This document shows positions 46,228 through 63,449 of a stretch of 64,000 bases of DNA, piece by piece. The notes under the pieces were generated by a model, which worked only from the letters and a program-made list of their open reading frames with translations, was not told where the DNA came from and ran no database searches. The stretch is from Verrucomicrobiota bacterium (GTDB lineage Bacteria > Verrucomicrobiota > Verrucomicrobiia > Opitutales > Opitutaceae), in the NCBI GenBank assembly GCA_016235555.1, contig JACRKC010000066.1:1-64000 (forward strand), in the 5' to 3' direction. The position numbers and the translations under genes are program-made. Position 1 is the first letter of the stretch. The number at the start of each line of letters is the position of its first letter.

Positions 46228-47877
46228 ATGCGTTATCCGCTCCTGTTTCTTTTCTCGATCGCGGCGGTCGCCCGCGCCGCCGAACCGGCCCACGGCATCT
46301 CCGCCGCGAGCATCCTCGCCCGGACCAGGATTCTTGCCTCCGATGAATTCGAGGGGCGCGGGCCGGCCACGCCCGGGGAGGAGAAAACCGTCAGCTACCT
46401 CGCGGCCGAATTCCGGAAGCTCGGCCTGAAGCCGGGCAATCCCGACGGCACCTATTTTCAAAACGCCCGGCTCGTCGGCATCACCTCCAAGCCCACGCTC
46501 GCCTTCCGCGTCGGCGGCAACGCGATGCCGGTGGAGAACATCAACGATTACGTCGCGTTCTCCACCCGCGTGCAGCCGCACGTCGAGGGCACAAACAGCG
46601 ACGTCGTCTTCGTCGGCTACGGCATCGTCGCGCCGGAGTTTGGCTGGGACGACTACAAGGGCGTCGATGTCCGCGGCAAGACCGTCGTCATGCTCATCAA
46701 CGACCCGCCCCTCGTCGACGTTGCGACCGGCAAGCTCGACCCGAAGCTGTTCGGCGGCGCCGCGATGACCTACTACGGCCGCTGGACCTACAAATACGAG
46801 ATCGCCGCGCAGAAAGGCGCCGCCGCCTGCCTCATCGTCCACGAAACCGGTCCCGCCGCCTATCCCTTCGGTGTCGTGATCACGAGTTGGAGCCGCGAGA
46901 ACTTCGAGATCAACACCCCCGACCGCAACGCCGGCCACGTCGCGCTCTCCGGCTGGCTCACCCTCGAGGCCACCAGGAAACTCTTCAACGCGTGCGGCCG
47001 CGACTTCGATGCCCTCAAGAAATACGCCGGCACGCGCGATTTCCGCCCCGTGCAGTTTCCGGCCAAGGCCTCGTTCTCGGTCGACAACACGCTCCGCGAA
47101 GTCGACTCCCGCAACGTCATCGCGCTCCTCCCCGGCGCCGATCCCCGGCTGCGCGACGAATACCTCATCTACTCCGCGCACTGGGACCATCTCGGCCGCG
47201 ACACCACCAAGGCCGGCGACCAGATCTACAACGGCGCCGCCGACAACGCCGCCGGCGTGGCCGTGCTCCTCGAGCTCGCTCAAGCCTACCGGGCCCTGCC
47301 CGCCGCCCAGCAGCCGAAGCGCAGCGTGATTTTTCTCTCCATCACCGCCGAGGAAAAAGGCCTGCTCGGCTCGCGCTACTACGCGCAAAACCCGCTCTAT
47401 CCGCTCACCCGCACCGTCGCCAATCTCAACATGGATGGCGCCAACCAATTCGGCCGCACCAGCGACATGGAGGCCGTGGGTTTCGGCGCCTCCACGATCG
47501 ACGACATCGGCATCGCCGTCGCCAAGGCCCAGGGCCGCGAGATGAAGCCCGAAAGCCGCCCGGAGCGGGGCAGCTACTACCGCAGCGACCACTTCGAATT
47601 CGCGAAGGTCGGCGTGCCGTCCTACTATCCGAAGTCCGGCAAAAAGTTCATCGGCCAGCCCGACGACCACGGCGAGAAGCTCGTCGCCGCCTACATCGCG
47701 AAGGACTACCATCAAGTCACCGACGACGTGAAACCCGAGTGGACCTTCGAAGGCGCCGCGCAGGACACCGAGTTCCTCCTGAAGGTTGGCCTCCAGATCG
47801 CCAACGACGCCAAGTGGCCCGAGTGGCGCCCCGGCAACGAATTCAAAGCCCGCCGCGACGCGATGCTGCGAAAGTAA
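46228..47877 (+). CDS. Secreted M28-family aminopeptidase with PA domain
   Basis: A 549-residue zinc peptidase. A signal peptide (MRYPLLFLFSIAAVARA) is followed by a protease-associated domain at about 110-260 (VVFVGYGIVAPEFGWDDYKG, VRGKTVVMLINDPPL). The M28 catalytic domain has the zinc ligands H318 (YSAHWDHLG), D339 (GAADNAAG), E375/E376 (TAEEKG), D403 (NMDG) and H455 (SDHFEF). It should remove N-terminal residues from peptides in the periplasm or outside. It lies downstream of repeat copy D and near the DPP-like peptidase/hydroxyproline genes, so a role in peptide use is reasonable. Confidence 0.93.
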   Translation: MRYPLLFLFSIAAVARAAEPAHGISAASILARTRILASDEFEGRGPATPGEEKTVSYLAAEFRKLGLKPGNPDGTYFQNARLVGITSKPTLAFRVGGNAMPVENINDYVAFSTRVQPHVEGTNSDVVFVGYGIVAPEFGWDDYKGVDVRGKTVVMLINDPPLVDVATGKLDPKLFGGAAMTYYGRWTYKYEIAAQKGAAACLIVHETGPAAYPFGVVITSWSRENFEINTPDRNAGHVALSGWLTLEATRKLFNACGRDFDALKKYAGTRDFRPVQFPAKASFSVDNTLREVDSRNVIALLPGADPRLRDEYLIYSAHWDHLGRDTTKAGDQIYNGAADNAAGVAVLLELAQAYRALPAAQQPKRSVIFLSITAEEKGLLGSRYYAQNPLYPLTRTVANLNMDGANQFGRTSDMEAVGFGASTIDDIGIAVAKAQGREMKPESRPERGSYYRSDHFEFAKVGVPSYYPKSGKKFIGQPDDHGEKLVAAYIAKDYHQVTDDVKPEWTFEGAAQDTEFLLKVGLQIANDAKWPEWRPGNEFKARRDAMLRK

Positions 47878-53952: not shown

Positions 53953-54846
53953 TCAGAGCGTCGGGCGGGTGGCCAGGGCCCGACTAAGGGCCTTTTTTGC
54001 GGCCACGAGTTCGGCGCCCTCGAGCGGCAGGCGCGGTGGGCGCACCGTCGCGCTGCCGCAACCCATCTCGCCCTGGATCCATTTGATGTATTGCACGAAC
54101 TTCGGGACCGTATCGAGGCGCAGCAACGGGAGGAACCACTGGTAGATCGCATCGGCGCGCGCGTGGTCGCCGGCTTGGGCGGCATTGAAGAGCGCGACGG
54201 ACTCGGCGGGGAACGCGTTGACGAGGCCGGCGATCCAGCCCTGCGCTCCGGCGGCGATGCCTTCGACGATCGCGTCGTCCATGCCGACGAGCACGTTCAG
54301 CCGGCCGCCGACGAGGTGGCGGATGGCGGTGACGCGGCGGGTGTCGCCGCTCGACTCCTTGACGGCGTGCAGCGTGGGAAACTCCGCAACCAGCTCGGCG
54401 ATCTGCGCGGGCAGATAGTCGGTTTTGTAGGCCGGCGGGTTGTTGTAGAGCATGCACGAGAGCTTCGTCGCGCGAAAGACGGCCGCGAGGTGCGCCTTCA
54501 TCTCGCGCCAGTCGGTGCTGTAAACATAGGGCGGCAGCACCATCAGGCCGGAGGCGCCGGCCTTCGCGGCCCCGCGGGCGAGCGCGACGGCCTCGGTGGT
54601 CGAGAGCGAGGCGATGCCGAGCACGACGGGCACGCGGCCCTTCGCGGCTTGGACGGCGGTGCGCACGACGGCGATTTTTTCGTCGAAGGAGAGCGTGGCG
54701 GCTTCACCGAGGGAGCCGCAGCAGACGAGGCCGGTGCAGCCGCAGTCGATCATCCAGCGGCAATGGCGTGCGAACGCGGCGTGATCGATCGCGCCGTTGG
54801 CGCGGAGGTTGGTGGTGAGGGCGGGAATGACGCCGGTCCAGTTCAT
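53953..54846 (-). CDS. DapA-family deaminase/aldolase, likely hydroxyproline pathway
   Basis: A 297-residue class I aldolase-fold enzyme. The ATG at 54846 gives the standard N-terminus MNWTGVIPALTTNLRANGAI. The Schiff-base lysine is K163 (HAVKESSGD) and the catalytic tyrosine Y134 (CMLYNNPPAY); the GSLGEAATL loop replaces the usual GTTGE. Given the epimerase and DadA-like genes upstream on the same strand, the best call is 1-pyrroline-4-hydroxy-2-carboxylate deaminase, which yields 2-oxoglutarate semialdehyde. Dihydrodipicolinate synthase or N-acetylneuraminate lyase activities are less likely alternatives. The semialdehyde dehydrogenase gene of that pathway is not in the window. Confidence 0.8.
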   Translation of the reverse strand: MNWTGVIPALTTNLRANGAIDHAAFARHCRWMIDCGCTGLVCCGSLGEAATLSFDEKIAVVRTAVQAAKGRVPVVLGIASLSTTEAVALARGAAKAGASGLMVLPPYVYSTDWREMKAHLAAVFRATKLSCMLYNNPPAYKTDYLPAQIAELVAEFPTLHAVKESSGDTRRVTAIRHLVGGRLNVLVGMDDAIVEGIAAGAQGWIAGLVNAFPAESVALFNAAQAGDHARADAIYQWFLPLLRLDTVPKFVQYIKWIQGEMGCGSATVRPPRLPLEGAELVAAKKALSRALATRPTL

Positions 54847-54950
54847 GGGAAGACAAGGAAAGTGGCCACAAAAGGCACGGAATGCACACAACAGAAATAC
54901 TGAATCCTGAGTTTTCTGAGCCTTTTGTGGCCAAGAAATGTTTGCCGCTC

Positions 54951-56204
54951 TCAGGCGCCGAAGCGATCGGGCGAAAGCAGCTTAAGGTCAATGGAGGGGC
55001 TCTCGCCGGAGAGGAGTTGCGCGACGATGCGGCCTGTGATCGGGGCGAGGCTGAGGCCCATCATCGCGTGGCCGGTGGCGGCGGTGAGATTATCGAAGCG
55101 CGCGAAACGACCGAGGTAGGGCAGCCCATCGGGCGAGCAGGGCCGCAGGCCGCGCCACGGCGTGATGGCGCCGAAATCTGCGGTGCGAAACTCCGGGAAA
55201 TAGCGCGGCACCGCCTCGATGATGCCCTGCACGCGTTCGGGGCGGATCGACTCGTCGAGGCCGCTCAGTTCCATGGTGCCGCCGACGCGCAGCGTGTCGC
55301 CCATCGGCGTGACGGCCACGCGGGCCTCGGTGAAGATCGAGCACAGCCGCGGCAACTGGCGCGGGCGCGGCAGCGTGAGGCTGTAGCCCTTGCCCGGCTC
55401 CATCGGCAGACGCAGGCCGAGCGAACGGACGGTGGCGGGCGACCACGAGCCGCCGGCGAGCACGAACTCATCGGCGGTGATTTCTCCGCGCGGCGTGATC
55501 GCGGCGACGACACGGCGGCCTTCGCTGCGCCAGCCGGTGATCTCGGTCGACCACGCGAACTGCACGCCGGCTTCGCGGGTGAGGCGCAGCAGCGTGGCCA
55601 TGAAGCGTTGCGGTGTGAGGTGGCAGTCGAGCGGGAAGTAAACCGCGCCGGCGATGTCCATGCGCACGTCCGGATCGAGTTCGGCGGCGCGGGCGGCGGT
55701 CACGACCTCGGCGGCCACGCCGAGTTCGCGGGCGCGAGCGACGATCGCGCCCTCGTGGTCGAGTGCGGACTGCGTTTTGCAGAGCATGAGCAGCCCGCGT
55801 TGCACGAGGCCGAAGTCGTTGCCGGTGGTGTCGGCGAGTTCCTCGAAGAGCGCGCGGCCGGCGAGACTGAGATCGCGCAACACCGGCGCGGAGCGCGCGA
55901 CGTGCTGCTCCGTGGATGCGCGCATGAAACGCAGGCCCCAGCCGATCAGCGACGCGCTGAGCCGAGGGCGGATGTAGAACGGGCTCTTCGGATCGAACAT
56001 CCATTTGAACGCGAGCGCGGTCATGCCCGGCGCGGCGAGCGGCACGAAATGACTCGGCACGATCATGCCGGCGTTGCCGAACGAGCAGCCGTCGCGGTCC
56101 TCGGGGTGGCGGTCGACGACGGTGACCTCGTGGCCGCGGGCGCGCAGGTAATGGGCGGCGCAGAGGCCGATGACGCCGGCGCCGCAGATGAGGATGTGGC
56201 TCAT
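54951..56204 (-). CDS. D-amino-acid dehydrogenase family (DadA-like), likely D-hydroxyproline
   Basis: A 417-residue FAD enzyme of the DAO family. The ATG at 56204 starts the FAD motif directly (MSHILICGAGVIGLCAAHYL). Further matches are VVDRHPEDRDGCSFGNAGMI, PMEPGKGYSLTL, TPMGDTLRVGGTMELSG and WRGLRPCSPDGLPYLGR, then a final ATGHAMMGLSLAPITGR, all typical of DadA-like proteins. No signal peptide. In context it should oxidise cis-4-hydroxy-D-proline to the pyrroline that the next gene product deaminates. Another D-amino acid is possible. It lies 104 bp upstream of the DapA-family gene. Confidence 0.85.
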   Translation of the reverse strand: MSHILICGAGVIGLCAAHYLRARGHEVTVVDRHPEDRDGCSFGNAGMIVPSHFVPLAAPGMTALAFKWMFDPKSPFYIRPRLSASLIGWGLRFMRASTEQHVARSAPVLRDLSLAGRALFEELADTTGNDFGLVQRGLLMLCKTQSALDHEGAIVARARELGVAAEVVTAARAAELDPDVRMDIAGAVYFPLDCHLTPQRFMATLLRLTREAGVQFAWSTEITGWRSEGRRVVAAITPRGEITADEFVLAGGSWSPATVRSLGLRLPMEPGKGYSLTLPRPRQLPRLCSIFTEARVAVTPMGDTLRVGGTMELSGLDESIRPERVQGIIEAVPRYFPEFRTADFGAITPWRGLRPCSPDGLPYLGRFARFDNLTAATGHAMMGLSLAPITGRIVAQLLSGESPSIDLKLLSPDRFGA

Positions 56205-56214
56205 GGCTGATGGA

Positions 56215-56281
56215 GCGGCGGGTGTCCCTGCCCGCCGATGGCGGCGCCCGGCAAACCTCGGCGGGCAGGGACGCCCGCCGC
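56215..56281. repeat. GCGGCGGG-type hairpin element
   Basis: Arms 56215-56238 and 56258-56281 are inverted copies at 23 of 24 positions around a 19-nt loop. Same family as 59968-60036. It starts 11 bp upstream of the DadA-like start codon, so it lies in its 5' untranslated region. Confidence 0.85.
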
Positions 56282-56330
56282 TACGGGATCGCCTGCAAGC
56301 AGGCACCGACACTGGGAGGGATTCATGAAA

Positions 56331-56447
56331 GGTGGAGCGCGTTGACCTCAACGCGCTGGTTTGAAGGTGGGCGCGGATTTAACCCGCGACTCGTCGGGGC
56401 GTAAAGCCCCTCCCACCAAACGCGCGTTGGGTGCATCGCGCTCCACC
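56331..56447. repeat. GGTGGAGCGCGTTGA element, copy 1
   Basis: End arms 56331-56356 and 56422-56447 match as inverted copies at about 22 of 26 positions. The inside has two further pairings (GCGCGGATTTAACCCGCG and GGGGCGTAAAGCCCC). Related to 57623-57698. It lies in the 354-bp gap between the epimerase and DadA-like genes, where I see no gene. Confidence 0.8.
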
Positions 56448-56493
56448 TGTTCGCAGTCATGCTATGGGCGCATTTCGCTTTTCTGCAATCGAC

Positions 56494-56535
56494 GAGGCGG
56501 GACGCCTCGTCCACGTGGCGGAGGCGTCCTGCCTC
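56494..56535. repeat. GAGGCGGGACGCCTC hairpin
   Basis: Arms 56494-56508 and 56521-56535 pair at 14 of 15 positions with a 12-nt loop. It lies 23 bp beyond the stop of the epimerase gene and is followed on the plus strand by GAAAAATAAG. On the minus strand it could work as a weak terminator or stabilise the mRNA end. Confidence 0.7.
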
Positions 56536-56558
56536 AGTCAGAAAAATAAGATGTGCCC

Positions 56559-57491
56559 TCATGCTCTTATCCCCCAGCAAAACGGATCGCGCTCGTCGAG
56601 GTGAAGCGTGGCCTCCGCCATGATGTGCGCGGTGCCGGTGATCACCGGCGCGACTTCGCCTTTGGCCCGATCGAGCCAGCGATAGCGGCCCTCGAAACGG
56701 CTGCCGATCACGCTCTCCTGCACCCACGTGGCGCCCTCGGCGAGTTTGCCGTCGTCGGCGAGGCAGGCGAGTTTGGCGCTGGTGCCGGTGCCGCACGGCG
56801 AGCGGTCGTAGGCCTTGCCGGGGCAGAGCACGAAGTTGCGGCTGTGCGCGCCGGCTGCGGGGGAGGGCGCGAAGAGTTCGACGTGGTCGACTTCGGGATG
56901 ACCCTGGGTGTTGACCGCTTGGCGGACGCGCCAGGTGAAATCGGTGAGCGCTTCGAGATGAGTGAGCTTGAGTGCGAGAGTGTGCTCGGCGACGAGGAAA
57001 AACCAGTTGCCGCCCCATGCGATGTCACCGCGCACATCGCCGAAGCCCGGCACGCGGGCGACGAAGTTTTTCGTTTTGCGAAAGCTCGGCACGTTGGCGA
57101 CCGACACGCGGCCGTCGGCGTGCAGTTCGGCTTCCACGGCACCGACGGGTGTGTCGAGGCCGACGCGACCCGGACGGATGCGACCGAGATGGGCGAGCGA
57201 CGCGACGAGCCCGATCGTGCCGTGGCCGCACATGCCGAGGTAGCCGACGTTGTTGAAAAAGATCACGCCGACTTCGCAGCCGGCGCGATGCGGCGGCACG
57301 AGCAAGGCGCCGACGACGGTGTCGGAGCCGCGGGGCTCGTTGACGATGGCGGAGCGGTAGGCGTCGAAGTTCTGGCGGAAGCGGGCGACGCGCTCGTCGA
57401 GCGGGCCGGTGCCGAGGTCGGGTCCGCCGTCGAGGACGAGGCGCGTGGGTTCACCGCCAGTGTGGCTGTCGAGGACGCGGATGCGTTTCAT
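56559..57491 (-). CDS. Proline racemase family, likely 4-hydroxyproline 2-epimerase
   Basis: A 310-residue enzyme starting at ATG 57491 (MKRIRVLDSHTGGEPTRLVL). Both catalytic cysteines are present: C88 in GMCGHGTIG and C233 in SPCGTGTSA. That excludes the trans-3-hydroxyproline dehydratases, which have Thr at the second site. Other family motifs are VNEPRGSDTVVGALL, VGVIFFNNVGYLG and GNWFFLVAEH. Next to DadA-like and DapA-family genes on the same strand, epimerisation of trans-4-hydroxy-L-proline to cis-4-hydroxy-D-proline is the most likely reaction. Proline racemase is the alternative. It is cytosolic. Confidence 0.87.
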   Translation of the reverse strand: MKRIRVLDSHTGGEPTRLVLDGGPDLGTGPLDERVARFRQNFDAYRSAIVNEPRGSDTVVGALLVPPHRAGCEVGVIFFNNVGYLGMCGHGTIGLVASLAHLGRIRPGRVGLDTPVGAVEAELHADGRVSVANVPSFRKTKNFVARVPGFGDVRGDIAWGGNWFFLVAEHTLALKLTHLEALTDFTWRVRQAVNTQGHPEVDHVELFAPSPAAGAHSRNFVLCPGKAYDRSPCGTGTSAKLACLADDGKLAEGATWVQESVIGSRFEGRYRWLDRAKGEVAPVITGTAHIMAEATLHLDERDPFCWGIRA

Positions 57492-57516
57492 TGGGCGGAG
57501 GCGGGGACGGCGAAGC

Positions 57517-57581
57517 AGGGCGGGCATGTGACCCGCCCTTGGGCACGGAGAGAGTTCGAGGGCGGGTCACAGACCCGCCCT
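57517..57581. repeat. Tandem GGGCGGG hairpins
   Basis: Two neighbouring hairpins with the same arms: AGGGCGGG/CCCGCCCT at 57517-57539 and again at 57559-57581. They start 26 bp upstream of the epimerase start codon. Confidence 0.75.
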
Positions 57582-57622
57582 ACTGCACGCGGGCGATGCC
57601 GTGCTTGGCTTCGTGCAGTTGA

Positions 57623-57698
57623 GGTGGAGCGCGTTGACCGCAACGCGCTTGGGCTGCGACGTGGCTCCGGAAAGCGCGTTGGGGTCAACGCGCTCCCC
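57623..57698. repeat. GGTGGAGCGCGTTGA element, copy 2
   Basis: Arms 57623-57650 and 57672-57698 are nearly perfect inverted copies (one or two differences) around a 21-nt loop. It shares arm sequence with the element at 56331-56447 but lacks its long centre. It lies in the gap between the DPP-like and epimerase genes. Confidence 0.85.
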
Positions 57699-57770
57699 CT
57701 CGATCCAATTGTTTCGTCAGGGAGAGCAGGTTCGGCTGCGCGATCTCGGGTTGGAGCAGGCATGGCGGTG

Positions 57771-59966
57771 TCACGGTCTGAACGTGCGCACGAAAAAATC
57801 CTCCATGCGCCTGCGTCCGTAGGGGGTGCGGAAGACGCCGTGGCCGGCGCCGGGCAGGACGAGATACTCGAAGTCCTTGCCGGCTTTCGCGAGAGCGGCG
57901 GCGACTTGATATGTGCTGGACGGGTCGACGTTCTTGTCGAGTTCGCCGACGGCGAGGACGAGCTTGCCCTGGAGGCGATGCGCGTTGGTCACGTTGGAGT
58001 TGGCGGCGTAGTGCGGCCCGACGGGCCAGCCCATCCATTGCTCGTTCCACCAGATTTTGTCCATGCGGTTGTCGTGGCAGCCGCAGTCAGAGGCGGCGGC
58101 CTGGTAGACATCGCCGTGAAAGAGCAGGGCGCCGAGCGCGCTCTGACCGCCGGCGCTCGTGCCGTAAATGCCAAGGCGGGTGAGATCCAGCTCGGGAAAC
58201 TTCTCTGCCGCCGCGCGCAGCCAGGCGATCCGGTCCGGGAAGCCGGCATCGGCGACATTCTGCCAGCAGACATCGTGAAACTGCTTCGACCGGCCAGTGG
58301 TGCCCATGCCGTCGATCTGCACGACGATGAAGCCGCGCTCGACGAGGGCGTCGTGGGCGCCGAAGGCTTTCGGCACGAAGAACCCGTGCGGGCCGGCGTA
58401 GATGCGTTCGATGACGGGATATTTTTTCGCCGGGTCGAAATCGCGCGGACGCAGAATGAGCCCGAAAATATCCGTCGTGCCGTCGCGGCCCTTGGCAACG
58501 AACCGCTGCGGCCAGCGGCCGCGGGCGGCGAGGACGGCGCTGGCGTCGGCGGTTTCGAGTTCGCAGACGATGCTGCCGTCACTCGCGCGGCGAAGCACGG
58601 AGTGCGGCGGCGCGTCGACGCGCGACCATGAATCGACGAAGAACGCGTGATCGGGCGACCACGCGATGGTGTGCGTGCCATGCTCGGGCGTGAGGATTTT
58701 GAAATCCGTGCCGTCGAGATTCACGCGGCAGAGTTGCTCGTAATAGGGATCGTCGAGGCCACCGGCGCCGCCGGCGCGGAACCACAGCGTGCGCGAGCGG
58801 CGGTCGAGATGCTCGATCCCGCGCACGACCCAGGCGCCGCGGGTGATCGGGTTCTTCACGCGGCCGGCGCGGCTGTCGTAGAGGTAGAGGTGGCACCAGC
58901 CGTCGCGCTCGCTGGGCCAGATGATTTCGTCGGACGCATCGAGGTATTCGACGAAGCGTCCGGTGCGGGAGTAGTGCACAAACGTGTCGCTGCGCTCGTC
59001 GATGACGACGCGCAACGCGCCGGTCGTGGCGTTGACCGAACAGACCTGGAGGAGTTGGTGGCCGCGCTGGTTGTGTTGAAAGAGGAAGCGCGTCGAGTCC
59101 GGCGCCCAGCGGACGGGGTCCATGCTCCACGGATTGGGCATCGCGCTCTGGTCGACGGGAATCTCGCGGGCCGCGGCGACATCGAAAAGCCGCGGCCGGC
59201 TGACCGGCAGTTCGTCGCCGGGCTTGAGATAGGGATACGATTGAACCTTGGGTTGCAGTTGATCGGAAGGGCTGGAGTCGACGAGCGTCACGCGGCGCTC
59301 GGGCACGGTGCGCGTCTGCATCGCGACCAGATGTTTCGAATCGGGCGACCAGCGCACGTCGGCTTCGTGGGCCGGGGCGTCGGCGCGATCGTATTGCATG
59401 CTGACGAGACGGGCGCGCGACACGTCGCGACGATAGGTGTGACCGGGGCTGCCCGTGTGCGAGAGCGGCACTTCGCGCTTGGTGGCAACTTCACGGAGCC
59501 AGAGATTGTCGTCGCGGGCGAAGGCCTCCCACTTGCCATCGGGTGACACCGGGCGGCCGCGGCGTTCGCGTTCGTCGTCGCTGGCGGAGGCCGGGGCGGT
59601 CGGGCTCGTGCGGGGTGGCTCGGCGGCCAGCTCAAATTTCTCCAGGTCGAGCACCCAGGAGCGGTTGCCGCTCTTGAATCTGAGTTGGCGCAAATCGGCG
59701 GAAAGTTCGGCCTGCGTGATCTGGTCAACGCCGGCGGCGGTGAGAGCGGCACGCGCCTTCGCGAAATCGAAAGCAGGAGTGCGCGAACCGGCGCGGCAAT
59801 CGACGACGAAGAACTCGTCGCCGGCGGGCGTGTCGACGCGATACCAGAAGCGCGCCGTCTGGCCGAGCCAGTGTGGTTGCACGGGGCCGCGATAGAGCTT
59901 GGGCACATCGGCGGCGGCGAGGGCGGGGCCGAGGAGCAGCGCGAGGCCGAGCGTCAGAAGTCGCAC
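57771..59966 (-). CDS. Secreted S9 prolyl-oligopeptidase-family peptidase (DPP IV type)
   Basis: A 731-residue peptidase. I chose the GTG at 59966, which gives a signal peptide ([20 protein letters not shown]); the open frame continues upstream only through a hairpin repeat and antisense of a sulfatase. Residues about 100-460 form a DPP-type beta-propeller ([53 protein letters not shown]). The hydrolase domain has S604 (GTSAGGQS), D677 (GELDKNVD) and H709 (GAGHGVF). DPP IV-type enzymes release X-Pro dipeptides, fitting the downstream hydroxyproline genes. An acyl-aminoacyl peptidase activity is the alternative. Confidence 0.88.
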
Positions 59967-59967
59967 C

Positions 59968-60036
59968 GTAGCGGCGGGCGTCCCTGCCCGCCGATCTTGA
60001 CGCATGGGGACCGGCAGGCCGGGACGCCGGCCGCTA
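59968..60036. repeat. GCGGCGGG-type hairpin element, second copy
   Basis: Arms 59968-59993 and 60012-60036 pair at about 22 of 26 positions; the left arm matches the element at 56215-56281. It begins 2 bp upstream of the chosen GTG start of the DPP-like gene, so its hairpin would cover the ribosome binding site. The rest of the gap up to 60188 shows no gene. Confidence 0.8.
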
Positions 60037-60188
60037 CGCGATGGCCTGCTGCCGTCGGCGACTTCAGACGCGGTATTTGGACAACGGGCGAGGGGCAGCG
60101 GGGGCATGGGGGAGTGCAGAAAAAATGACCGGCGAAGTCCAGTGCGCGGAGTTGTATTTCGCGTGCGATGCGTTTTCGCTCGCGCCTG

Positions 60189-61733
60189 ATGAAACCCCGT
60201 CACCCCCGCATCGCGGCGTTGGGCCTCGCGGCTCTCGCCTTGGCAACATCCGGATTGCTGGCCGCCGAGCGCGCGCGTCCCCGCAACATCGTCATCATCT
60301 ACGCTGACGATCTCGGCTATGGCGATGTCGGCTGTTACGGGGCGAAGCGCGTGGCGACGCCGAACGTCGACCGGCTCGCACGCGAAGGACTGCGTTTCAC
60401 GGCCGCCTACGCGACCTCGGGCACGTGCACGCCGTCGCGGTTTGCGCTGCTTTCCGGCGAATATCCGTGGCGGCGCGACGGCACGGGCGTGCTGCCGGGC
60501 GACGCGGCGCTCGTGATCGATCTCAATCGCGCGACACTGCCGACGCTGTTGAAAAAAGCGGGCTACACCACTGGCGTCGTCGGCAAATGGCATCTCGGTC
60601 TCGGCGCGAAGGGGCAGCCGATCGATTGGAACAAGCCGATCACCCCCGGGCCGCGCGAGGTGGGGTTCGATTATCACTTCATCATGGCGGCGACGGGCGA
60701 CCGCGTGCCGTGCGTCTACGTCGAGCAGCAGCGCGTGGTCGGCCTCGATCCGGCGGACCCGTTGCGTGTGGACTACCAGAAGCCGTTCCCGGGCGAGCTC
60801 AACGGCGTGACCGACCGCGCGACGCTGAAGATGGATTGGTCGCACGGGCACAACATGGCGGTCGTCAATGGCGTCGGGCGCATCGGCTACTACACGGGCG
60901 GCAAGGCGGCGCAGTGGGTCGACGAGGACATGGCGGATACGTTTACCAAACACGCGGTGGATTTCATCGCGCGCGAAAAGGCGAAGCCGTTCTTCCTGTT
61001 CTTCGCGACGCACAGCATCCATGTGCCGCGCGTGCCGCACGCGCGTTTTGCCGGCAAGACCGGCATGGGGCCGCGCGGCGATGCGATCGTGGAGTTCGAC
61101 TGGCAGGTGGGCGAGGTGCTGGCGGCCTTGGAAAAACACGGCCTCACGCGCGACACGCTCGTCCTCCTGTCGAGCGACAACGGCCCGGTGGTCGACGATG
61201 GCTACAAGGACCAGGCGGTCGAGAAACTGGGTGACCACCGCCCGGCGGGCCCATTCCGCGGCGGCAAATACAGCCGCTTCGAGGCGGGCACGCGCGTGCC
61301 GTTCATCGTGCGCTGGCCCGGCCACGTGAAGCCGGGCACCACGACCGAGGCGATGGTGAGTCAGGTGGATTTTGCCGCGACATTCGCGGCGATGGCGGGC
61401 GTTAAACCCGGCGACAACGACGCGCCCGACAGTCTCGATGTCGGTGCCGCGCTGCTCGGCCAATCGCCGCGCGGGCGCGATTACGTGATCGAACACTCGG
61501 GGCGGCTCGCGTTGCGCGAGGGCAATTGGAAATTCATCCAGCCCGCACCGCAGGGCGTGGCCTTCAACAAGGCGACGGCCACCGAGACGGCCAACTCGCC
61601 GCAGCCGCAACTCTACGATCTCGCGACCGATCCCGGCGAGAAGACCAACGTCGCCGCGGCGAACGCCGAGCGCGTCACGGCGATGGGCGACAAACTGGCC
61701 GCGTTGCAGAAGAACCCGCGCACGCGGCCCTGA
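60189..61733 (+). CDS. Sulfatase (S1 family)
   Basis: A 514-residue type I sulfatase. The ATG at 60189 gives a signal peptide (MKPRHPRIAALGLAALALAT, cleavage near AAE); an in-frame ATG at 60168 is the alternative. The formylglycine signature is C80-T-P-S-R (SGTCTPSRFALLSGEY) and the metal site is D40-D41 (NIVIIYADDLGYGDVG). Further matches are VVGKWHLGLG, THSIHVP and LLSSDNGPVVDDGYKD, with FRGGKYSRFEAGTRVPFIVR. It removes sulfate esters from a glycan in the periplasm. It heads a row of three sulfatase genes. Maturation needs a formylglycine-generating enzyme encoded elsewhere. Confidence 0.93.
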   Translation: MKPRHPRIAALGLAALALATSGLLAAERARPRNIVIIYADDLGYGDVGCYGAKRVATPNVDRLAREGLRFTAAYATSGTCTPSRFALLSGEYPWRRDGTGVLPGDAALVIDLNRATLPTLLKKAGYTTGVVGKWHLGLGAKGQPIDWNKPITPGPREVGFDYHFIMAATGDRVPCVYVEQQRVVGLDPADPLRVDYQKPFPGELNGVTDRATLKMDWSHGHNMAVVNGVGRIGYYTGGKAAQWVDEDMADTFTKHAVDFIAREKAKPFFLFFATHSIHVPRVPHARFAGKTGMGPRGDAIVEFDWQVGEVLAALEKHGLTRDTLVLLSSDNGPVVDDGYKDQAVEKLGDHRPAGPFRGGKYSRFEAGTRVPFIVRWPGHVKPGTTTEAMVSQVDFAATFAAMAGVKPGDNDAPDSLDVGAALLGQSPRGRDYVIEHSGRLALREGNWKFIQPAPQGVAFNKATATETANSPQPQLYDLATDPGEKTNVAAANAERVTAMGDKLAALQKNPRTRP

Positions 61734-61737
61734 ATTC

Positions 61738-61793
61738 GTAGCGGCGAGCGTGAGCGAGTGGTCTCTGATCCACTCGCTCACGCTCGCGGCTAC
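61738..61793. repeat. GAGCGTGAGCGAGTGG-type hairpin, second copy
   Basis: 24-bp arms 61738-61761 and 61770-61793 with one mismatch and an 8-nt loop, starting 5 bp after the sulfatase stop. Same family as 45818-45873. Without a T-run it is not a classic terminator but could protect the mRNA 3' end. Confidence 0.9.
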
Positions 61794-61800
61794 CAACGAA

Positions 61801-62000
61801 AGTAAAAAATCCCCGGGGCAAGCCCCGGGGCATTTGACCAGACCCACCATGCAACCTTCGACCACTCATCGTAGCGGCGAGCGCCCGCGAGCCGACGCGC
61901 TTCGACTCGCTGGCGCTCGTCGCTACCCAACCAAGGCGAAGCAAGTTTACCCGCCTGTGGCGGCGCCGCAGGCGACCAGGGCTTCGCGGTCTCGGACCCA
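61801..62000 (-). repeat. Composite palindromic repeat, copy E
   Basis: Inverted relative to copies A-D. On the plus strand it begins AGTAAAAAATCCCCGGGG and runs through a CCCCGGGGCAAGCCCCGGGG hairpin, the central palindrome and CCGCCTGTGGCGGCGCCGCA to GGTCTCGGACCCA. The GATACC-type end stops 6 bp before the ATG of the next sulfatase, so the repeat supplies most of that gene's leader. Confidence 0.9.
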
Positions 62001-62006
62001 ACGGAA

Positions 62007-63449
62007 ATGAAACTGCCAATCTTGCTTTTCTCGCTAGCCGTCGCGCTCTCCGCCGCGCCGCGCAACATTCTCATCATGCTGGCCGATGACTACGGCTACA
62101 TGGACCTCGGGGCGAACAACCCGAAGACCTTTTACGAGACCCCCAATCTCGACCGACTCGCGGCCCAAGGCGTGCGCTTCACCGACGGCTACGCGGCCAA
62201 TCCCGTGTGCTCGCCGACGCGCTACTCGATCCAGACCGGCAAGTATCCCACGCGCGCCGGTCTGACCAACTGGCTCGCGGGCATGCGCAAGGAGCGGTTC
62301 GACAATGCGCCGCTCACGCTGCAGATGCCGCTGGAGGAAACGACGCTGGCGGAAGTCTTGAAGCCCGCGGGCTACCGCACGGCGTTCGTCGGCAAGTGGC
62401 ACCTCGGTGAGGAGGCGAAGTATTGGCCGGAGGCGCAGGGGTTCGAGATCAACGTGGGCGGTTTTTCGAAAGGCTCACCGCCGAGTTATTTTTCGCCCTA
62501 TAAAAATCCGCGGCTCACCGACGGACCGCCGGGCGAGCACCTCACGATGCGGCTGGCCGACGAGACGTGCGCCCTGATCGCGAAATTCAAGACCGAAGGA
62601 AAGCCGTTCCTGATCCAGCATTGCTTCTACGACGTGCACACGCCGTTGCAGGCGCCGAAAGACCTCATCGAAAAATACCGCGCCAAGGCGGCGCGCCTCG
62701 GGTTGAAGGACGCGTTCGACGAGGAGAAACAGTATTTCATCTCCGTGAAAGGCGCGCGCCAGGTGCGGGCGGTGCAAAGTCACGCGGTCTACGCCGCGAT
62801 GGTGGAGAGCATGGACACCGCGGTTGGCAAAATTTTTAAGCAGCTGGATGACCTCGGTCTCGCGAACGACACGCTCGTAATCTTCACCTCGGACAACGGC
62901 GGCCTCTCCACCTCGGAGGGCCATCCGACCTGCAACTACCCGCTGCGCGGCGGCAAGGGCTGGGTCTACGAAGGCGGCATCCGCGAACCGTTTCTCGTGC
63001 GCCTGCCGGGTGCGGCGAAACGCGGCGCCGCCGAGCCGACGCCGGTGATGAGCATCGATATTTTCCCGACGGCGCTCGAATTTGCGGGCGTGCCGCTGCC
63101 CGCCGGCCTCACGGTGGATGGTCGCAGCCTCGTGCCGCTCCTGCGCCGGGGTGTGGCGCCGGCGCGTGACGCGCTCTTCTGGCACTACCCGCACTACGGC
63201 AACCAGGGCGGCTTTCCGGGAGGCGCCGTGCGCCTGGGCGACTGGAAGCTCGTCGAAAATTACGAAGACGGCTCCGTCGCGCTCTACAATCTGCGCGACG
63301 ACCTCGGCGAAAAACAGGATCTCGCGGCGGCCCAGCCTGAGCGAGTGCGCGCGATGCGGTCACGATTGCACGCGTGGTATCGCGAGACCGGCGCAAAGTT
63401 CCTGCGCGCGAAAGACGGCGGCCCGGCGCCGTGGCAACCCGGATTGTGA
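62007..63449 (+). CDS. Sulfatase (S1 family)
   Basis: A 480-residue sulfatase. A short signal peptide (MKLPILLFSLAVALSAA) is followed by RNILIMLADDYGYMDLG with metal ligands D27-D28. The formylglycine site is C68-S-P-T-R (PVCSPTRYSIQTGKYP). Other matches are TAFVGKWHLGEEAKYWPEAQ, QHCFYDVHTPLQAP and IFTSDNGGLSTSEGHPT, then PLRGGKGWVYEGGIREPFLV. This layout resembles the arylsulfatase A-like group acting on sulfated polysaccharides. The start is 6 bp after repeat copy E, and the stop is 14 bp before the next sulfatase, so those two are co-transcribed. Confidence 0.94.
   Translation: MKLPILLFSLAVALSAAPRNILIMLADDYGYMDLGANNPKTFYETPNLDRLAAQGVRFTDGYAANPVCSPTRYSIQTGKYPTRAGLTNWLAGMRKERFDNAPLTLQMPLEETTLAEVLKPAGYRTAFVGKWHLGEEAKYWPEAQGFEINVGGFSKGSPPSYFSPYKNPRLTDGPPGEHLTMRLADETCALIAKFKTEGKPFLIQHCFYDVHTPLQAPKDLIEKYRAKAARLGLKDAFDEEKQYFISVKGARQVRAVQSHAVYAAMVESMDTAVGKIFKQLDDLGLANDTLVIFTSDNGGLSTSEGHPTCNYPLRGGKGWVYEGGIREPFLVRLPGAAKRGAAEPTPVMSIDIFPTALEFAGVPLPAGLTVDGRSLVPLLRRGVAPARDALFWHYPHYGNQGGFPGGAVRLGDWKLVENYEDGSVALYNLRDDLGEKQDLAAAQPERVRAMRSRLHAWYRETGAKFLRAKDGGPAPWQPGL

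Follow-up and report, generated by a model that had tools for sequence, protein, structure and literature searches.

A predicted trans-4-hydroxy-L-proline catabolic cluster beside an S9 peptidase gene in a Verrucomicrobiota genome

4-Hydroxyproline is a constituent of collagen and of the proteins of plant cell walls. The bacterial degradation of trans-4-hydroxy-L-proline (Hyp) is a known pathway (PMC4113996; PMC4364671), and peptidases joined with Hyp genes in clusters or regulons are known as well, in Colwellia (mSystems 2021, PMC7883544) and in Streptomyces, where an M9 collagenase is listed in the HypR regulon (PMC6608401). The 4-hydroxyproline 2-epimerase (HypE) has been described in a structure with the pair Cys88/Cys236 (eLife 2014, PMC4113996). 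A phenylalanine at specificity site 1 is reported as ProR-like, a histidine at site 4 as perhaps specific to HypE, and a cysteine or tyrosine at site 5 as HypE-type (PLoS One 2015, PMC4364671). We analyze here a cluster of this kind in a window of 64,000 nucleotides from an Opitutaceae genome (Verrucomicrobiota; GCA_016235555.1). Contig C24 (64,903 bases), in an assembly of 8.03 Mb and 140 contigs, extends only slightly beyond the window. On the minus strand of the window, the order of transcription is S9 peptidase, HypE, DadA-like oxidase, and DapA-family protein (Table 1). Among open-licence papers (most subscription journals lay outside the search), we found none on Opitutaceae and hydroxyproline and none on S9 family peptidases and hydroxyproline.

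The hydroxyproline genes and their conservation

We read the locus as a trans-4-hydroxy-L-proline catabolic cluster and give this reading a probability of about 0.88; the last step would be performed by an enzyme encoded on contig C94. In the proposed route, the probably exported S9 peptidase would trim Pro/Hyp-rich peptides outside the cytoplasm, and Hyp would enter the cell via a transporter. HypE would invert the alpha-carbon by a two-cysteine proton transfer, and the FAD enzyme would oxidize the resulting cis-4-hydroxy-D-proline to pyrroline-4-hydroxy-2-carboxylate (Pyr4H2C). The DapA-family enzyme, via Lys163, would remove water and ammonia, giving 2-oxoglutarate semialdehyde, which the C94 2-oxoglutarate semialdehyde dehydrogenase (KGSADH) of a Weimberg-type pentose cluster would convert to 2-oxoglutarate. 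A preliminary description of the window had located the four minus-strand genes and an M28 peptidase where we find them. It had also assigned the epimerase, oxidase, and deaminase to the first three steps from trans-4-hydroxy-L-proline, with which both the family matches and the neighbourhoods in relatives agree.

The Pfam matches are far above chance (Pro_racemase 3.6e-98 for the epimerase; the others in Table 1), and the epimerase is the sole match to the Pro_racemase family in the genome. It carries Cys88 in MCGHG and Cys233 in SPCGTG, at exactly the positions announced earlier. Its two best NCBIfam models are both for 4-hydroxyproline epimerase (Table 1) and score twice as high as the proline racemase model (198.5 bits); a third 4-hydroxyproline epimerase model gives 226.9 bits and trans-3-hydroxyproline dehydratase models give 193.8 and 121.3. 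The nearest PDB chains are 2azp (PA1268), 4jbd, 4jci, and 4j9w, with E values from 9e-120 (2azp) to 2.5e-115; the racemase 1w61 matches at 2e-49. The residues V60 (site 1), H203 (site 4), and C223 (site 5) form the HypE pattern, sites 4 and 5 being located by their spacing from the second catalytic cysteine and site 1 by the surrounding motif. The pattern is nearly constant in 60 homologues of the family (V60 in 59/60, H203 in 60/60, C223 in 59/60, Cys88 in 60/60, and Cys233 in 59/60). Because of the model scores and these residues, the assignment to HypE, and not to the proline racemase type, is supported.

The oxidase, for which glycine oxidases are the nearest solved structures, has an FAD-dependent oxidase domain and is clustered with HypE, as fits a probable D-hydroxyproline dehydrogenase. 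The DapA-family protein keeps Tyr134 and Lys163, the Schiff-base lysine of the family, and has Ala139 where the aligned Pseudomonas DapA has Arg. There are eight DHDPS-family matches in the genome, and the top-scoring one, on C38, is probably the biosynthetic DapA. The window protein appears to stand apart from the biosynthetic enzyme and is a candidate Pyr4H2C deaminase (HypD).

We searched 252 genomes of the family, taken to be Opitutaceae. HypE is present in 66, the window genome and 65 relatives, and the neighbourhoods of HypE were examined in 60 of these relatives (G060, G110, G135, G136, and G141 are outside the set). Several neighbourhood stretches stop less than 3 kb from HypE, so that the lower counts among the 60 are minima. 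An oxidase homologue is found near HypE in all 60, a DapA-family homologue in 46, and a KGSADH homologue in 33. The usual order is E-O-D-KGSADH (epimerase, oxidase, DapA-family protein, and dehydrogenase).

Five neighbourhoods fit awkwardly, with E-O-KGSADH and no adjoining DapA-family gene: L066 (G163), L078 (G105), L089 (G139), L092 (G132), and L095 (G133). None of these genomes, three of which are assembled in one or two contigs, gave a HypD homologue at E 1e-40 or better. Another enzyme may stand in for HypD there; otherwise the pathway has changed. The epimerase of L095 has lost the second cysteine, and its site 5 is also altered. In L093 (G101), an in-frame TGA occurs within the HypE match, the match to the oxidase gene is fragmented, and no KGSADH is matched in the genome at E 1e-60; this is either a decaying cluster or the product of sequencing errors.

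Several points weigh against the reading of the window as a Hyp cluster. All three enzymes score below the NCBIfam cut-offs: the epimerase is under the equivalog cut-offs of 450 (NF052296) and 442 (NF010577), the oxidase reaches 302 bits against 383 for NF001933 (DadA subfamily), and the DapA-family protein 163 bits against 206 for the dapA equivalog. The intergenic gaps are 104–354 bp, and a single transcript, which the reading would imply, is not assured. The scan of adjoining genes recognized no transporter, regulator, or KGSADH. With no KGSADH, the window does not hold the complete pathway in one cluster.

The last enzyme

The preliminary description had noted that the semialdehyde dehydrogenase was not visible and called for a search of the genome. 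That holds within the window, and the profile search gave no Aldedh match on C24; genome-wide, there are nine matches to the aldehyde dehydrogenase family, with a KGSADH candidate at C94:25900-27498. Its best PDB matches are 1eyy (E 1.6e-135) and 3v4c (3.1e-132), and it shares 47–54% identity with the KGSADHs encoded in the operons of relatives. The gene is flanked by that of a YjhG/YagF D-xylonate dehydratase (TIGR03432, 1061 bits, above the cut-off of 808) and by an FAH-family gene. The Weimberg pathway comprises a xylonate dehydratase, a 2-keto-3-deoxyxylonate dehydratase, and a KGSADH. The C94 locus would then be a Weimberg-type (pentose) cluster, the FAH-family protein and the KGSADH being assigned by family alone. 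Among the 30 loci most like C94 (itself included), an FAH homologue occurs within 1.5 kb of KGSADH in 23.

In a tree of 62 KGSADHs, a single branch (support 100/99) separates 32 operon copies from 30 copies found elsewhere; the latter are the best matches to the C94 copy, and the clean split is partly due to this choice of sequences. All operon copies but one of the 33 were long enough to be included, and one of them (L070) is on a long branch. A KGSADH homologue is present in 62/66 genomes with HypE versus 81/186 others (Fisher P 2.5e-14). Fifteen clusters have at least 5 kb of downstream sequence and no KGSADH (the window, G081, G075, G220, G098, G096, G066, G079, G246, G078, G025, G045, G201, G128, and G099). 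Thirteen of these genomes carry a KGSADH homologue elsewhere: in ten it is a C94-type enzyme (the C94 copy itself or 70–79% identical; partial in G096), and in G025, G201, and G128 a more distant one (40–51% identical). Because genomes with KGSADH-less clusters mostly carry the enzyme elsewhere, and because HypE and KGSADH co-occur, the pentose-type cluster on C94 is the most likely source of the missing last enzyme.

Other results are less favourable to this assignment. The entries 1eyy and 3v4c are named only as aldehyde dehydrogenases. Against the 2,5-dioxovalerate model, the C94 dehydrogenase reaches 107 bits for a cut-off of 750. In two of the fifteen genomes (G078 and G045), no KGSADH was found at E 1e-60. 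The Fisher tests, here and below, ignore the kinship of the genomes. The last step could be performed instead by another aldehyde dehydrogenase, for example the SSADH-like protein on C6 (540 bits), and the nine family matches offer a choice; type I KGSADHs do fall in the SSADH-like branch. We consider this unlikely, since the C94 protein broadly matches the operon KGSADHs in type, and nearly all the HypE genomes hold such a gene.

The S9 peptidase

A gap of 279 bp separates the S9 gene from the epimerase gene. The S9 gene, pointed out in the preliminary description as immediately upstream, is a neighbour in relatives as well. The N-terminus that follows the GTG start resembles, read by eye, a Sec signal peptide, and the peptidase is probably exported. 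The alternative start, ATG at 60005, on the far side of an intergenic repeat, is less likely. All 25 aligned rows have Ser604, Asp (677 or 681), and His709, and the sequence, the Pfam matches, and a structure model all agree with the Ser-Asp-His triad and the propeller/hydrolase architecture of DPP IV (S9B). The model, with a middling mean pLDDT of 77.8, superposes on DPP IV-type folds with a best Z of 30.1 and a root-mean-square deviation of 6.3 over 601 residues; we base no active-site claim on it.

In DPP IV, a Glu-Glu pair anchors the free N-terminus. The window protein has no such pair in the stretch before WSPDS, where 5yp1 has DEEMDR. An EE occurs somewhere in that stretch in 10/25 rows, seven of which share one position well ahead of the 5yp1 pair, and no EE is conserved. 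Other acidic residues could replace the pair. The X-Pro/DPP specificity proposed in the preliminary description is not retained as established, and we rejected a proven X-Pro dipeptidyl peptidase because the DPP IV pair is absent. We take the enzyme, from its gene context, as acting on Pro/Hyp peptides, any given mode of cleavage being less likely than a role in Hyp use.

Counted at E 1e-100 or better, the S9 peptidase occurs in 15/252 genomes of the family, with HypE in 11/15 of them versus 55/237 of the others (Fisher P 1.1e-4). Eight relatives (G060, G065, G066, G073, G098, G128, G129, and G069, the last with broken frames) have it at most about 3 kb from the epimerase. In G060, G065, and G073, match coordinates and open frames place the two genes within about 20 bp of each other or overlapping. 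A GTDB search gave at least 594 S9-like stretches, of which the best 80 were analyzed. HypE is within 10 kb of S9 in four of these 80: L150 (= G065), L157, L170, and L176. Three others (L167, L208, and L215) have a DapA-family homologue, 44–47% identical, and no HypE was seen there. In contigs from Verrucomicrobiales and Armatimonadetes, too, the S9 gene adjoins Hyp genes, which are arranged differently there. The orders are S9-E-O-D in the window clade, O-E-D-S9-M24 in G128, S9-S9'-D-x-E-O in L157, E-O-S9 in L170, D-x-E-O-S9 in L176, S9-D in L167 and L215, and S9-M24-x-D in L208, the M24 gene directly after S9 in G128 and L208 being aminopeptidase P-like.

A quick tree was made of 94 S9 proteins (L150, in the same place as L138, was omitted, and L069 was dropped for length, its frames being broken). 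On it, linkage to HypE has to be gained or lost five times, and well-supported branches force at least four of these changes; "unlinked" here means no HypE in the DNA examined, and several contigs are short. Shuffled labels give a mean of 10.6 changes, so that linkage is clustered and not confined to one group. In the 79 GTDB loci other than L150, there are three HypE matches versus 0.32 expected (P 0.0044, assuming one HypE per 4-Mb genome), or P 0.00014 if 30% of genomes are assumed to have HypE. The linkage is best read as repeated recruitment.

The S9 peptidase could instead be a bystander, brought beside HypE by chance and kept there by shared neighbourhood ancestry. The family is broad, and a homologue is near HypE in only 7/60 neighbourhoods (besides the window and G060), being absent from the other 53. 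HypE is missing from 4/15 of the genomes with S9, and the four linked loci are few among the best 80 from GTDB. The recurrence of the linkage in different gene orders, the changes forced on the tree, and the excess of HypE matches in the 79 loci make a bystander rather doubtful. Since 76 of the best 80 GTDB relatives have no HypE in the DNA examined, the S9 subfamily overall is not tied to hydroxyproline. The S9 peptidase of the window probably has a role in Hyp use, as its gene context suggests, and its association with the cluster seems genuine, though optional.

Two observations concern S9 genes outside the window. In L157, a Verrucomicrobiales Hyp cluster, a second S9 peptidase with a DPPIV_N domain (L157:12426-14510) stands directly downstream of the first. 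The S9 gene of L154, a metagenome-assembled genome titled Klebsiella pneumoniae, groups with one from Verrucomicrobiales, and the title may be wrong.

Surrounding genes, alternatives, and described systems

Table 1. Positions of the cluster genes and nearby features in the window
Feature	Position	Strand	Evidence
4-hydroxyproline 2-epimerase (HypE), 310 aa, predicted	56559..57491	-	NCBIfam NF052296 396.5 bits, NF010577 395.7 bits; PDB 2azp
DadA-like FAD oxidase, probable D-hydroxyproline (cis-4-hydroxy-D-proline) dehydrogenase, 417 aa	54951..56204	-	Pfam DAO 3.8e-68; NF001933
DapA-family protein (candidate Pyr4H2C deaminase, HypD), 297 aa	53953..54846	-	Pfam DHDPS 1.1e-58
S9 serine peptidase with DPPIV_N propeller, 731 aa from GTG	57771..59966	-	Pfam DPPIV_N 2e-47, Peptidase_S9 3.2e-42
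M28 peptidase, outside the system	46228..47877	+	Pfam Peptidase_M28 9.8e-42
HypE/oxidase gap, 354 bp, two GC-rich near-palindromic repeat copies	56205..56558		Repeat scan of window

The intergenic repeat, GGCGGGCAGGGACGCCCGCCG, is GC-rich and near-palindromic, with copies at 56216-56236, 56260-56280, 59972-59992, and 60013-60033. These four matches (at most three mismatches) compare with 0.02 expected in the window, and they form opposite-orientation pairs at the 5' ends of the oxidase gene and of the S9 gene. The M28 peptidase is nearby, as the preliminary description said; it lies on the opposite strand, 6 kb off, with other open reading frames in between. As a partner it is rejected, for no homologue is near HypE in any of the 60 neighbourhoods. 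The sulfatases at 60168-63449 have matches in L041, L042, L046, L055, L060, and L097 (29–49% identity) and in L069 (84%); they are taken as local synteny in G069 and not as part of the cluster.

In relatives, regulators with PAS_4 and AraC-type (HTH_18) domains occur near the Hyp cluster at L097:8354-9076 and L046:6852-7580, the latter belonging to a cluster of open reading frames present in six neighbourhoods; none was recognized adjoining the window cluster. P-II-like genes accompany HypE in 32 loci, and in 19 there is an ammonium-transporter-like gene (both named by eye), upstream of HypE in, for example, L066, L089, L092, L095, and L087. This is either plain synteny or a link to the ammonia released from hydroxyproline. 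We treated the common neighbours of HypE, also named by eye (P-II, ammonium transporter, tRNA synthetases, and others), as a matter of local synteny and not of function.

The cluster might serve free hydroxyproline or hydroxyproline betaine from plants instead of peptides, and in some bacteria the published pathways start from the betaine (PMC4113996). The window genes have a peptidase as neighbour, and the M24 genes that follow S9 in G128 and L208 also point to peptides, which makes a source other than peptides improbable. Very improbable is a proline racemase or trans-3-hydroxyproline dehydratase in a cluster for D-proline or another D-amino acid, an option raised in the preliminary description for the racemase and suggested by the shared superfamily and by the general DadA/glycine oxidase family of the oxidase, and rejected here on the lower model scores (198 bits for the racemase against 396 for 4-hydroxyproline epimerase), the HypE-type residues at 60, 203, and 223, the Cys-Cys instead of Cys-Thr catalytic pair, and the DapA-family and KGSADH partners in relatives, which match the published hydroxyproline route.

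Beyond the Hyp cluster with its S9 peptidase and C94 dehydrogenase, we propose, tentatively, that the S9 subfamily, with its DPP IV-like fold and no Glu-Glu pair, is exported and has a new specificity for Hyp/Pro-rich peptides, perhaps as an endo- or oligopeptidase, and that it was recruited repeatedly into Hyp operons of Verrucomicrobiota and Armatimonadota. The window lineage might also have swapped the operon KGSADH for the enzyme of the pentose pathway, so that the two routes would meet at 2-oxoglutarate semialdehyde. The gene context gives a broad and little-described S9 subfamily a concrete substrate hypothesis and suggests how peptides of the collagen or extensin type could serve as food for such bacteria. 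A last enzyme common to Hyp and pentose oxidation would make the pathway look incomplete from the cluster alone.

The locus resembles the described systems in several respects and departs from each. With the bacterial trans-4-hydroxy-L-proline pathway (PMC4113996; PMC4364671), it shares the enzyme superfamily at each step and a Cys-Cys HypE; it differs in the KGSADH outside the cluster, in a pentose-type cluster, in the S9 peptidase upstream, and in the transporter and regulator, neither of which was recognized adjoining it. The Streptomyces HypR regulon (PMC6608401) also has HypE and a DapA-family deaminase, together with a multi-subunit dehydrogenase and a GntR-type regulator, neither of them seen in the window. 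With DPP IV and prolyl tripeptidyl aminopeptidase (S9B; 5yp1, 2ecf, 2d5l), the S9 peptidase shares the fold and the catalytic residues, at 22–24% identity and without the glutamate pair. In the Colwellia collagen-utilisation cluster (PMC7883544), peptidases are likewise clustered with a 4-hydroxyproline epimerase and downstream enzymes; that cluster contains an M9 collagenase, YpdF, a hydroxyproline dipeptidase, transporters, and proline genes, whereas the window has one S9 peptidase, of another family. What is distinctive here is the S9 partner in several lineages and, probably, a last enzyme shared with pentose oxidation.

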